From Brachyhypopomus gauderio (Eukaryota; Chordata; Actinopteri; Gymnotiformes; Hypopomidae): a stretch of 64,000 nucleotides of DNA. The stretch is from positions 124,001 to 188,000 of the forward strand of contig NW_027506914.1 of NCBI RefSeq assembly GCF_052324685.1, in the 5' to 3' direction. The position numbers and the translations under genes were made by a program. The notes beneath the pieces were generated by a model. It saw nothing but the letters and a program-made list of their open reading frames with translations. It was not told where the DNA came from and searched no databases. Positions 26,332-38,482 of the stretch are shown in pieces (the first letter of the stretch is position 1; every line of letters starts with the position of its first letter).

Positions 26332-26387
26332 TTCATTAAGTGGTGAAAGAAGCTCAACTATGTCTGGAAGAGGAAAGGGTGGTAAGG
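26332..26387 (+). pseudogene. H4 leader carried by the LINE insertion
   Basis: 28 bases of apparent H4 5' UTR (TTCATTAAGTGG...CTCAACT), then ATG at 26360 and codons MSGRGKGGK (26360-26387). The last 15 bases, GAAAGGGTGGTAAGG (26373-26387), reappear at 31620-31634 right after the 3' end of the first full LINE: a target duplication in the H4 SGRGK motif. The host H4 reads GGTAAGGGTGGTAAA here, so the leader came from another H4 gene. Confidence 0.85.
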
Positions 26388-26449
26388 GTTTTCGTCTTTG
26401 CTTACAGCGCTGTGGTTGACATTATGAGTGGCAGAGGCAAGACCGGTGG
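26388..26449 (+). pseudogene. H2A leader and start carried by unit 1
   Basis: TCTTTGCTTAC...GTGGTTGACATT followed by ATG at 26424 and codons SGRGKTGG: the 5' UTR and start of an H2A gene, close to but not identical with the resident H2A (19501-19545). The 5' edge at 26388 plausibly equals an H2A transcription start (36-nt leader). Confidence 0.85.
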
Positions 26450-26873
26450 TTTTGATCGGGCTTAATATTACCATAAACGAAAAAGCTGTCATGCATGGCA
26501 TATTCATAGAAACACTTCCAAAAAAAGTTCACAACCTGTTTTGGCTAACAATCTGCATAATAAACAATAAAATTTGGAAAACAAGATGCAAAATGATAAT
26601 AAACCAGTGCCATATCTCTGCTGAGACGGTTTTTAAACAGATAAAAATCGAATTGAGGAGACAACGGACGGTCGATAGAAGGACAATTAACACACTGCCA
26701 TGGGACATTTTGGATTATTTTTGATAGTGAGTAATTGAATGTAAAGGAAAAAAAAAAAAAAAAAAAAAAAAAAGGATGTATGTGTGTATTTTGTTTATTG
26801 GTGTATATTCCCACATGTTTTTTTTTTTTTTGAATAGCTGTTGAAAATCAATAATAAAGATTCAGTAAAAAGC
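26450..26873 (+). mobile_element. 5'-truncated LINE copy inside H2A (unit 1)
   Basis: About 420 bp, from the GGGCTTAATATTACC codons near the end of ORF2 through the 3' UTR to the terminus TTCAGTAAAAAGC. The H2A motif GCAAGACCGGTGG is present before it (26437-26449) and after it (26872-26884, its first two bases shared with the LINE end). Four extra bases (TTTG) lie at the 5' join. It is a separate, older insertion at the H2A SGRGK codons. Confidence 0.85.
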
Positions 26874-26914
26874 AAGACCGGTGGTAAGGCTAGGGCCAAG
26901 GCCAAGACCGGTGG
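26874..26914 (+). pseudogene. H2A codons between the two LINE copies (unit 1)
   Basis: Continues H2A ([11 protein letters not shown]), but where the gene should read AAGACTCG it reads AAGACCGGTGG and then enters the LINE 5' end. The repeated AAGACCGGTGG suggests that the full-length copy used the same target motif, joined through microhomology. Confidence 0.7.
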
Positions 26915-26937
26915 ACTGAACTTCTGAACTTGTCAGT

Positions 26938-36400: not shown

Positions 36401-36737
36401 CGATGAGACTGTTGAGCACCTTTTGCTATATTGTCCCCGCTCAGCAGAGATATGGCAATACATGAAAGAAATCGGGCTTAATATTACCATAAACGAAAAA
36501 GCTGTCATGCATGGCATATTCATAGAAACACTTCCAAAAAAAGTTCACAACCTGTTTTGGCTAACAATCTGCATAATAAACAATAAAATTTGGAAAACAA
36601 GATGCAAAATGATAATAAACCAGTGCCATATCTCTGCTGAGACGGTTTTTAAACAGATAAAAATCGAATTGAGGAGACAACGGACGGTCGATAGAAGGAC
36701 AATTAACACACTGCCATGGGACATTTTGGATTTTTGA
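33447..36737 (+). CDS. LINE ORF2: APE endonuclease and reverse transcriptase (copy 2)
   Basis: 1096 residues, the same predicted protein as copy 1; the substitutions noticed are silent (GTG/GCG region, ACC/ACT). SDHLG, YADD and the terminal Cys/His motif are all kept. Confidence 0.9.
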   Translation: MTNLNVTSLNIRGIQSEKNRVKKIAALLQKKTDIFCLQELRLTSAQDVEDVKKMWINENIIISIGENRADGVAVLFNIDVEIIKIRYIIPGRLLMVDCYIKNQKIRIINVYTPPDRAGKMRILHKLYELSVGYSTILCGDFNTTTHRNDKFPPSNSISREGKLLKRVSETCKLKDSFREKFPEDFGFTRFDKKIKTRIDRIYVSDKIHVMIYKTEYLVESDHLGVSVKLSFDNRAQIGYWKLNTNCLKNKELVGELTDEINRIKDLRVLTKSDNHMWAIFKKQITAFFKRKCKDLNIQKNEKYYSLISKYIELQTKQIRDEEEEEELYKIKSEITQINDDLTLNIQIQAGVDTIHSGNLQTIIKQLQKRKESKYIKGIKDDLGNVITDENDKRNLIAKTCREGSTRVNVDDHDILKFLSNCKITPSINDDGLTNPITIKEVLTAISELNVGKSPGPDGLPSEFYKLCSSNIADLLVKMYNEGIKTGEMQKDFYHSVVSLIFKKGNENDLDNWRQISVMNIDYKILAKIVMNRMTKTLQNIIDSEQTCAIKGRFMWDNLGMLRELITNNIGREFFIVALDQKKAFDFISREYLWCVLKYYGFPDKFINIIRLLYMRSNVQINVNGILTEGFEVQRGVKQGCPLSAALYVIAISPLLNIIKNDNRLQGARTASNQIIKVSAYADDVTIFIKNQTELEVIKQLFKEYESVSGAKLNSNKTEVVWMGKNPAPPLDMECKKEIKILGIILTNGKCAEENWKQKEIEVQNEIDLWKVSNFKSRIKIIKTFVLSKLLFLATVFPPDKKTINRLNKMCVRFIWGSNREVTKRELLFKPIEKGGLNAMEMGNKLTIAFCKNVAQAIDRRADWVGDRKDWTKKRGRGRHKIPDFKLLYGDFISKHSETNIDWLNMTNKVIYNKIIAKEYGGNFCFKYLTPNEMDVGIKNLRCKDLSENMRDVMWLIGVGRLSVRCVVKWSCYVTTKLCPINGCNNDETVEHLLLYCPRSAEIWQYMKEIGLNITINEKAVMHGIFIETLPKKVHNLFWLTICIINNKIWKTRCKMIINQCHISAETVFKQIKIELRRQRTVDRRTINTLPWDILDF

Positions 36738-36962
36738 TAGTGAGTAATTGAATGTAAAGGAAAAAAAAAAAAAAAAAAAAAGGATGTATGTGTGTATTTT
36801 GTTTATTGGTGTATATTCCCACATGTTTTTTTTTTTTTTGAATAGCTGTTGAAAATCAATAATAAAGATTCAGTAAAAAGCAAGTAATGCCCTGGATGTT
36901 GTCACGGAGAACCTTGCGATGACGCTTAGCGCCTCCTTTCCCAAGACCTTTACCACCCTTAC

Positions 36963-38455
36963 TTTTTTTTTTTTTTTTCAAAATATATTATTTTTTTAAT
37001 TAGAACCTTTTGTTTAAATAAAGTTAAATAACAAAAAACATAACCTATATCACACAAATTCAAATTAGAGTTACTAGCCTTAAAGCCCCAGACATCCTTC
37101 TGAGTCCTGCCACAATAGAAGCCTTTAACCATCATATCTTGAGCAGCTCCTGTTAACACACTCAGCTCTGTTTCCAGGCAGTTGCGGAGTTCTAATTCAC
37201 AACTGGGGCTTTAAATGGCGGAGAACAACTACCAAAGAAAAAAGCCTTTCCCAGCACTGCAATATTTAAGAGCATTCACCTATTAAACCAGAAACATAAA
37301 ATCCATACAGAACCTGAAGTAACAGCATTACAAGAGAGATTAAGTGGCTGTTTTTTTTGTTTTTTTTCCTTCACTAAAATCAATTCCTTGCAGGCGGTGG
37401 GGAGGAGGTGTGTGCATAAAGAATGCGTGGACCTTGGCCAATGCCAATTCCTTAATTTCATATCATTATGTATAGTAGCAATAAATAACCATCTGCTGAA
37501 ATAGTTCTACTAATCCAATACAAACACATTATTACCTGGAATTTGGGTTCTGGCCAAACAATGGTTTCATTACTCTACAATGACTTAGAATAGTGTTCAT
37601 TTCCTACATTTCACAGTGCATATTAAAGTGAGACAAAAAAAAAAAAACCAGAAGCTGTCTTTGCTTATAACGCTTGATCCCTTACAGTCGTTTTCTGATT
37701 ACACACTTGTCTATCTTGGATACCTTAAGCATGCTTAAATGATTATTGCACAGAAGGCATCAACCTGACAAGGCTTCTGAGAGAGAGTGAGAGAAAGAGA
37801 CAGAGAGAGAAAGAGAGAGACACAAGTTTTATAATTTTACCATTACCAAATGCAAATAAAAAAGAAACTATTGAAGAGATGGAGTACAGTGCAGGGGTTT
37901 GGAGTTTGTGAAGTGTTTGGGGCACTGGACTCCCATACACTGCAACCACTGCTTTGCTTCATAATATGCACATGTAGATTTACATTCCTGTAGAGTTATG
38001 CCTGGATTTCAGCCCGCTGAAGTGCACCGTCCCAAGGCCATTTCCCAAGTAGCCACAGAGGTCTGTTTGCTCAGTCTAGCGCCGAAGACTGAATATCAAA
38101 AGTGCAGATGTACCACTAGTGAGTCTGTTTCACTTACAGTTTACTAAATGTCCAAGCACTAGCATGTATCATCATGATACCACCACTTTGTTTTCTTTGG
38201 GTTTTTGTTACATGTCCGTACATAAAATGAGTTATCCGGTGGGCGTCGCTTTTCTTTGCAACTTGACAACATGCTGATAATGCTAAGGCACACAGACTGA
38301 ACAGAGAGCGCTGGGGACCAGTCCTCGGTTAAAATGGACAGGCAAATATGCCCATTGCTGTACACGTGCGGATGGACGGGAATATTCTCTCCAGTAAACA
38401 TTACCTGAGGCGAGTCAAAGGGATAGCGGTTGCTGAATTTGAAGAGAAGTTGGAA
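36963..38455 (-). pseudogene. UBE2W: Processed UBE2W retrocopy inside H4
   Basis: A 5'-truncated copy of host UBE2W mRNA in H4-sense orientation. 16 T at 36963-36978 is the poly(A) tail; about 1.2 kb of 3' UTR follows; then the last 98 codons of the ubiquitin-conjugating enzyme (FQLLFKFSNRYPFDSPQVMF to WWYHDDTC), including the catalytic Cys in HICLSIL. The 14-bp target duplication TTTACCACCCTTAC (36949-36962 and 38456-38469), on the H4 strand, is GTAAGGGTGGTAAA of the SGRGKGGK codons. Its 3' junction is the same as that of the LINE in H4. No introns are present. A (TC)n-like GA tract at 37780-37820 lies in the 3' UTR. Confidence 0.92.
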
Positions 38456-38482
38456 TTTACCACCCTTACCTCTTCCAGACAT
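38159..38482 (-). CDS. In-frame H4(1-9)-UBE2W fusion open reading frame
   Basis: The H4 start MSGRGKGGK runs in frame into UBE2W codons from FQLLFKF to the native stop, giving 107 residues without interruption. It keeps the H4 promoter (inverted copy of 1255-1485). The E2 part lacks the first UBC helix and early strands (about 53 residues of a 151-residue protein) but keeps the catalytic Cys, the HPN-equivalent HPH and the C-terminal region. UBE2W attaches ubiquitin to protein N-termini; whether this fragment folds is doubtful. The UBE2W 3' UTR may allow normal polyadenylation. Confidence 0.7.
   Translation of the reverse strand: MSGRGKGGKFQLLFKFSNRYPFDSPQVMFTGENIPVHPHVYSNGHICLSILTEDWSPALSVQSVCLSIISMLSSCKEKRRPPDNSFYVRTCNKNPKKTKWWYHDDTC

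Follow-up and report, generated by a model that had tools for sequence, protein, structure and literature searches.

Why should a retrotransposon and a copied messenger RNA (mRNA) end at the same base of a histone gene? The question is raised by a 64,000-nucleotide stretch of the Brachyhypopomus gauderio genome (contig NW_027506914.1, here C70, C70:124001-188000; hereafter the window), which contains a piece of a fish histone cluster with the gene order H4, H3, H2A, H1, H2B, H4. The last H4 gene lies on the minus strand with its ATG at 38482 and carries two breaks, one made by an insert derived from UBE2W mRNA and the other by an array of a long interspersed element (LINE). A sequence-only reading of this region had suggested that a Tx1-like LINE targets H4 and H2A at the codons for SGRGK. 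Combining the window with searches of the 796.5-Mb genome, we conclude with high confidence that the element is a site-specific LINE of the L1/Tx1 group, equipped with an APE endonuclease, with codon 5 of H4 and H2A as its insertion site. The two genes share the target because both begin with SGRGK. The target itself looks like the DNA sequence around AGAG^GNAAR (^ marks the nick), recognised with a specificity that is strong but leaky.

Insertions converge on codon 5 of H4 and H2A

Three 3' junctions in histone coding sequence had been reported from the window, and all three are present. The LINE runs into H4 as ...AGTAAAAAGC followed by GAAAGGGTGGTAAGG (31619/31620) and into H2A as ...AGTAAAAAGC followed by AAGACCGG (26873/26874), and the poly(A) of the UBE2W copy meets the resident H4 as an A-run followed by GTAAGGGTGGTAAA (36962/36963). 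The proposed H4 nick between coding bases 13 and 14 is borne out by the junctions and by the UBE2W insert, which is flanked by perfect 14-bp copies of GTAAGGGTGGTAAA (36949-36962 and 38456-38469). For H2A the same base had been proposed on the assumption that the GC before the target belongs to the target. This GC is present in the window unit and at loci L010, L011 and L014, and absent at L020, L009 and L016, where the LINE ends in AAAAA (L-numbers denote loci and C-numbers contigs of this genome). The GC is thus not a fixed part of the LINE, an option that we rejected on these three loci, and with the GC read as H2A the nick there also falls at 13/14. Flanking duplications had been put at 13-15 bp; this holds for the short LINE in H2A (13 bp, GCAAGACCGGTGG) and for UBE2W (14 bp), whereas duplications elsewhere range from about 3-4 to 14 bp. 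At the LINE-to-H4 junction of the window the length is indeterminable, the sequence behind it being itself repeated.

A genome census that the sequence-only reading had proposed was run with the last 100 bases of the LINE as query, covering copies that retain the 3' end; 18 of 18 candidates were scored. Four of the 18 matches fall in the window and 14 outside. Every outside copy lies in or beside histone genes, 11 of them at codon 5: in raw counts, the 3' end is at H4 codon 5 in seven, at H2A codon 5 in four and in the spacer 3' of H4 in three. Unrelated flanks, set beforehand as the refuting outcome, were absent. Copies are also found on C10 and C20, and three sets of loci are duplicates of one another (L010/L011/L014; L019/L021/L022; L015/L017). 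We collapsed copies by common truncation point and flanks into 12 events, nine outside and three in the window. The 5' junction between full-length LINE and H2A (26904-26914) was not counted as an event, as L020 carries the same head and it may be inherited. The events comprise four at H4 codon 5, five at H2A codon 5, two in the spacer and one antisense in H4; accordingly, 9/12 lie at coding base 13/14 of H4 or H2A in sense orientation, that is, target-specific insertion in multicopy sequence as in many Tx1 elements. The 5' truncation points are distinct among copies and several copies have their own duplication; L018 has an inverted 5' part, as in twin priming. The junctions had also been called independent, which stands across genome loci and fails for the two window units, which are one repeated compound (99.6% identity); we therefore rejected them as separate insertion events.

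Other elements are found at the same site. In a genome census of ORF1, the first open reading frame (ORF) of the LINE, 100 of 200 candidates were scored, and among these the 11 matches at 45-100% identity all stand behind histone starts: two in the window, one at L036/L020, seven at H4 (L037-L043) and one at H2A (L044). A second family from the lineage of the window LINE meets H4 codon 5 with its 3' end in 6/6 genome matches, of which four seem to derive from a single event by duplication. At L066 (C133) and L067 (C17) a third, different A-rich 3' end is found at H4 codon 5, and the H4 body of these loci is also cut off near codon 74. Patterns joining an A-run to the target gave 6 hits for H4 and 5 for H2A, reversed control patterns 0 and 0; most of these represent copies listed above, and one hit is the UBE2W insert in its C17 duplicate. 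At least two histone-targeting families, and probably a third, reside in this genome.

The H4 genes themselves were counted with the protein as query. Of 47 places, 31 are whole genes (residues 1-103 at 100% identity), and the other 16 matches are pieces of 14 genes, two of which appear twice. All 14 broken genes begin at residue 3-6, and where the DNA was read (13/14, all but C70:53621) the 3' end of an element is joined there in 13/13. In the broken H4 genes that this census recovered, the remaining piece regularly starts at the SGRGK codons. A further break is present in two kinds of them, the window gene with its array and L066/L067 with the lost 3' end.

Alternative explanations and target choice

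The alternative that survives best is tethering, in which chromatin or histone locus body proteins draw the LINE to the cluster and a weak AG^GNAA cut suffices, the target being the cluster and not the sequence at codon 5. It is compatible with site-specific insertion, as the two may operate together, and the three off-site events agree with it: they are still at histone genes, and their nick sites (spacer; antisense H4) share only part of the codon-5 motif. The spacer site, CACG^GCAAAGTC, accounts for 2/12 events with different truncation points. Set against this are the nine events on the same base in sense and the lack of any join of the LINE to H1, H2B or H3 sequence in the 14 loci read, so that tethering alone is insufficient; we regard it as possible, on balance unlikely. 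As a separate observation, L015, L017 and L012, all 3' of H4 on the opposite strand, represent two independent insertions at CACG^GCAAAGTC(A/G)GACA, the one at L015 about 335 bases beyond the H4 stop.

Recognition of a short, 5' splice site-like G^GTAAG, with histone genes merely as visible victims, draws on the resemblance of H4 AGAG^GTAAGG to a splice donor and on the shortness of the consensus GNAAR. It is very improbable, and we rejected it: no splice donor is formed by the targets in H2A (GCAAG), in the donor H4 (GAAAG) or in a variant (GGAAA), and among the 18 matches in 796.5 Mb there is no case of a GTAAG target distant from histone genes. Least probable of all is local coincidence, a generalist LINE having hit a histone gene once and cluster recombination having spread the junction, for although several loci are mutual duplicates and the window compound is repeated, local rearrangement of one insertion is contradicted by independent events with distinct 5' truncations, targets (H4, H2A, spacer) and duplications, by the use of one base by UBE2W mRNA and by elements whose 3' ends differ, by the copies on C10 and C20 and by 0/18 matches away from histone genes, and was rejected.

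Several observations weigh against site-specific insertion at codon 5 or narrow it. Target choice has exceptions, 3/12 events lying off codon 5. L009 is bordered on its 5' side by non-histone sequence, and of the H2A gene at L016 just the edges are left. Duplications can be very short (L016, GTAA, 4 bp; L013, ~3 bp by eye), and our script detected none at L020 or L013 and called AAAA alone at L009; the L020 duplication measures 14 bp by eye after the H2A head is set aside. At L019/L021/L022 the LINE is three As short, GTAA being common to the LINE end and the target. Duplicated segments, possibly haplotypes, recur on C17, C70 and C133 and inflate raw copy numbers, hence the event counts. The negative control for other histones consists of the H3/H2B/H1 motif scan and 8-kb loci, and L010 and L014 hold at ~2607-2711, upstream of the LINE, an H3 fragment (residues 107-136, 90% identity). 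Finally, the H4 census misses short remnants such as those at L037-L040, which keep about a dozen codons of the H4 body behind the LINE. Separately, another related ORF2 fragment (32-58% identity) stands directly behind the LINE of L016, from ~6485, in the same broken H2A.

A compound array with histone heads

The array comprises two 5.25-kb units, which differ by 5 substitutions and homopolymer lengths. Each unit has the layout H4 duplication, H2A 5' untranslated region (5'UTR) and first codons, 5'-truncated LINE, more H2A, full-length LINE (Table 1). The array as a whole (10.5 kb) lies antisense in the resident H4 near codon 30, not codon 5, an insertion absent from the sequence-only reading. 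On C17 the locus is present a second time, with the UBE2W insert and without the array, and when the window flanks are joined they differ from C17 at 0/420 positions; this locus gives both the order of the two insertions and the empty site.

Table 1. Features of the interrupted H4 gene, the LINE array and the UBE2W insert (window coordinates).
Feature	Position	Strand
Resident H4, 3' part, stop included	26101..26331	-
12-bp duplication AGTAATGCCCTG from insertion of the whole array into resident H4 (antisense)	left 26320..26331, right 36883..36894	
Donor H4 head at array 5' end: 5'UTR 26332-26359, ATG 26360, nick point after 26372, then GAAAGGGTGGTAAGG	26332..26387	+
H2A head: 5'UTR, ATG 26424, target duplication GCAAGACCGGTGG at 26437-26449	26388..26449	+
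5'-truncated LINE copy at H2A codon 5; 3' end AAAAA; GC 26872-26873 read as H2A	26450..26871	+
H2A base 14 to codon 17 (Met = 1) and GGTGG, joined to full-length LINE 5' end	26872..26914	+
Full-length LINE, unit 1, 4,703 bases	26915..31617	+
ORF1, 420 aa from ATG: two RNA-binding domains (PF23057, PF23058) and CCHC zinc knuckle	26941..28203	+
ORF2, 1096 aa, open: APE-type endonuclease (PF03372) and reverse transcriptase (PF00078)	28200..31490	+
GC between LINE end and H4 target; putative carry-over from H2A-resident source copy	31618..31619	+
Unit 2 front: H4 duplication, H2A head, truncated LINE, H2A piece; repeat of 26373-26914	31620..32161	+
Full-length LINE, unit 2; ORF1 32188-33450, ORF2 33447-36737	32162..36879	+
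Resident H4, middle piece between UBE2W insert and array	36883..36962	-
5'-truncated UBE2W mRNA copy with poly(A) at H4 base 13/14	36963..38455	-
In-frame H4-UBE2W fusion ORF, 107 aa, MSGRGKGGK then UBE2W	38159..38482	-

The order within the window compound is H4 head, H2A head, LINE. The H2A head of the array is almost identical to the 5'UTR of the H2A gene that is interrupted in L013; the head starts ~30 bases behind a TATA-like sequence of that gene (by eye). Elsewhere in the genome, L020 is an insert in H4 that likewise carries an H2A head. The 5'UTR and start of the H4 at the array head were matched, among the loci compared, only within those of the window. Such histone 5'UTR heads suggest transcription from histone promoters; on the simplest reading, the inserted RNAs had their 5' ends at histone transcription starts. 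An element resident in H2A would have been copied into H4, and the compound then copied again.

The UBE2W mRNA copy at the identical H4 base suggests that the LINE enzyme accepts other poly(A) RNAs. As an observation in its own right, the fusion ORF stands behind the H4 upstream region and exists in two copies, on C70 and on C17 (L026); for L026 only the UBE2W part lies within the fetched stretch, where it is open with few changes. A chimeric gene of H4 tail and UBE2W is possible.

Two further elements were noted in the window. Between H1 and H2B, a reverse transcriptase fragment of another LINE is found at 22583-22893 on the minus strand (39-62% to ORF2). Long ORFs at 48790-54745, also on the minus strand, are integrase- and gag-like and by eye resemble a BEL/Pao-type long terminal repeat (LTR) element.

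Proposed mechanism

We propose that the ORF2 protein nicks the non-coding strand opposite AGAG^GNAAR, at base 13/14 of the histone ORF. Primed by the nick, reverse transcription would set out from the A-rich RNA 3' end, as in known target-primed reverse transcription, and a second cut, usually 9-14 bp downstream, would make the duplication. The LINE would in this way land in sense just behind the histone start codon, and its RNA would then start at the histone promoter. Read-through from an H2A flank may supply the stray GC before H4 targets, and the same machinery probably uses other poly(A) RNAs in trans, for example UBE2W mRNA. What was directly observed for this scheme is the position and orientation of the copies, their open ORFs, duplications of up to 14 bp, the constant 3' junction and the 5' truncations.

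Histone-joined gene models in other fishes

Two protein searches with ORF1 returned 51 homologues (P0094-P0144), 29 of them named. Six of the 29 continue into the H4 body (two from Serrasalmus, one from Metynnis, two from Oreochromis and one from Hemibagrus), one runs into H2A (Metynnis) and one begins MSGRGK-EAV-ORF1 (Mugilogobius). A few H3, H2B and H1 motifs scanned in 144 proteins had no match. The species with a histone-joined ORF1 belong to Characiformes (which include Serrasalmus), Siluriformes, Cichliformes and Gobiiformes. Locus tags of the LINE models are close together in Metynnis (MHYP_G00259850, -980, -990) and in Serrasalmus (SRHO_G00260420, -460), which fits clusters. On the evidence of these gene models, related families that share the target would exist in four or more teleost orders.

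Three points temper the extension to other fishes. The fusions are annotated gene models, and a model could splice a LINE into a neighbouring histone gene. Two ORF1 homologues are fused to other genes (P0111, IMAP; P0142, TRIM). In an ORF1 tree from which 5/52 rows were dropped as too short (P0137, P0140, P0142, P0143, P0144), the histone label is no more clustered than in shuffles (8 changes; 227/500 shuffles as low). Such scatter is what a clade-wide habit would give if annotation revealed it only occasionally, which is no proof of the habit.

A second ORF1 tree was built from 26/51 homologues and 18 loci of the same genome (L044 was dropped as too short). Histone-linked and U2-side sequences, 12 rows each, are split by one branch with 100/100 support, and 20 unlabelled rows fall on the histone side. 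The branch is very long, so depth is unmeasured by the tree. Five of the 12 U2-side rows carry no Rfam U2/U5 call: L054 and L058 were scanned without a hit, and L060, L061 and L063 were outside the scan, L060 and L061 containing the Keno-site motif. Within a clade distinct from the Keno-like, U2-targeting elements of this genome, the histone habit is probably old. By eye, the models P0006 (Astyanax) and P0138 (Prochilodus) pass from ORF2 to a tail resembling ORF1, or contain two different ORF1s in succession, a hint that head-to-tail copies exist in other characiform fishes too.

Taken as a whole, we consider it likely that a teleost-wide Tx1-type clade lives on replication-dependent histone genes. 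Its members would cut the DNA encoding SGRGK, take an S-phase promoter, gain heads by moving between H4 and H2A and make in-frame histone-tail fusions, and the clade would be, as far as is known, the first site-specific LINE lineage with a conserved protein-coding home. If this is true, highly conserved coding sequence can be a safe harbour for a LINE, given a multicopy gene family whose first codons are almost invariant, and promoter capture would tie the RNA of the element to S phase. The system would also provide a gene-specific endonuclease of natural origin. With U2-side and histone-linked LINEs in one genome, shifts of target choice between relatives could be tested, serial moves could be read from the stacked histone heads, and histone tails would have a way of joining other proteins.

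Comparison with known systems

Site-specific LINEs are known from RNA genes, telomeres and microsatellites. Tx1L of Xenopus and the site-specific LINEs of the Tx1 clade have two ORFs, an ORF1 with CCHC motif and an APE endonuclease that nicks specifically; clade members include Mutsu on 5S rRNA and Kibi and Koshi on microsatellites. Target-specific insertion is known for many, not all, Tx1 members, and a CCHC ORF1 is typical. The LINE of the window combines an APE-type endonuclease and an L1-like reverse transcriptase in ORF2 with a CCHC zinc knuckle (PF00098) beside the two RNA-binding domains of ORF1. The best structure matches of the ORF2 profile are to the endonuclease and reverse transcriptase of human L1 ORF2 (8uw3, E 2.3e-113), and profile searches of viral and genome contigs with the ORF2 alignment returned no relatives.

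The earlier assignment to Tx1 is kept at moderate confidence, ORF1 being homologous at low identity to elements at the Keno U2 site of the same genome, and the window element would accordingly be a Tx1-type LINE as judged from sequence. The other 89 ORF1 matches (100 of 200 candidates scored) are at most 32% identical, and identity to the elements at the Keno site is 25-32%. Nineteen low-identity loci were cut out; of nine scanned with Rfam, 7/9 hold U2 and/or U5 genes. The Keno-site motif is present in 10/19 loci, and in 7/10 an A-run is joined to TCTGTTCTTATCAGTTTAAT or a shortened form of it. TCTGTTCTTATCAGTTTAAT is described as the Keno target in U2 in the accessible part of PMC6136364. 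No 3' end of the window LINE is joined to this site, the 14/14 outside copies being histone-associated. As further observations, L045-L063 (C26, C113, C18) contain Keno-like LINEs, many by U2/U5 small nuclear RNA (snRNA) genes, and at L049 a LINE 3' end, a short U2 target copy and the U2 5' start follow one another, which resembles the adding of heads in the histone array. Like Keno, the window LINE is an APE endonuclease LINE at one exact base of a multicopy host gene, with its A-rich end joined to the target. Unlike Keno, whose target is a small RNA gene, it uses a protein-coding histone ORF, and U2-side ORF1s lie across the 100/100 branch from histone-linked ones.

R1 and R2 LINEs live inside a multicopy gene and rely on host transcription, the R2 endonuclease being restriction-like. 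The likeness to the window LINE is the home in a multicopy gene; the difference lies in the rRNA target and in the clades. R2 is co-transcribed with its host (PMC8789037, in part).

L1 mobilises mRNAs in trans. The window LINE resembles human L1 in its ORF2 endonuclease and reverse transcriptase and differs in using one gene-specific site. Human L1 prefers 5'-TT|AAAA-3' (PMC13295347, in part), and dispersed insertions of this ordinary type were not found for the window LINE, all 18 matches being in or beside histone genes.

Our literature search returned no report of a LINE aimed at histone genes, which is weak evidence as Repbase and most subscription papers lay outside it. The nearest reports, from the available portions of PMC6136364 and PMC10651099, describe LTR elements in fish histone sequences. 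Among APE-type clades, site-specific LINEs are placed only in Tx1 and R1 by PMC13295347, and U2 is treated as a low-copy target in PMC4640811. Within the Tx1 clade, the accessible text of four papers names no protein-coding target (PMC4640811, PMC8869645, PMC3747384, PMC13295347). The machinery of the window LINE is of a kind already known, and its target class, the histone genes, is new as far as we found: what sets this element apart from Tx1L and the LINEs of the Tx1 clade is a protein-coding gene as target.

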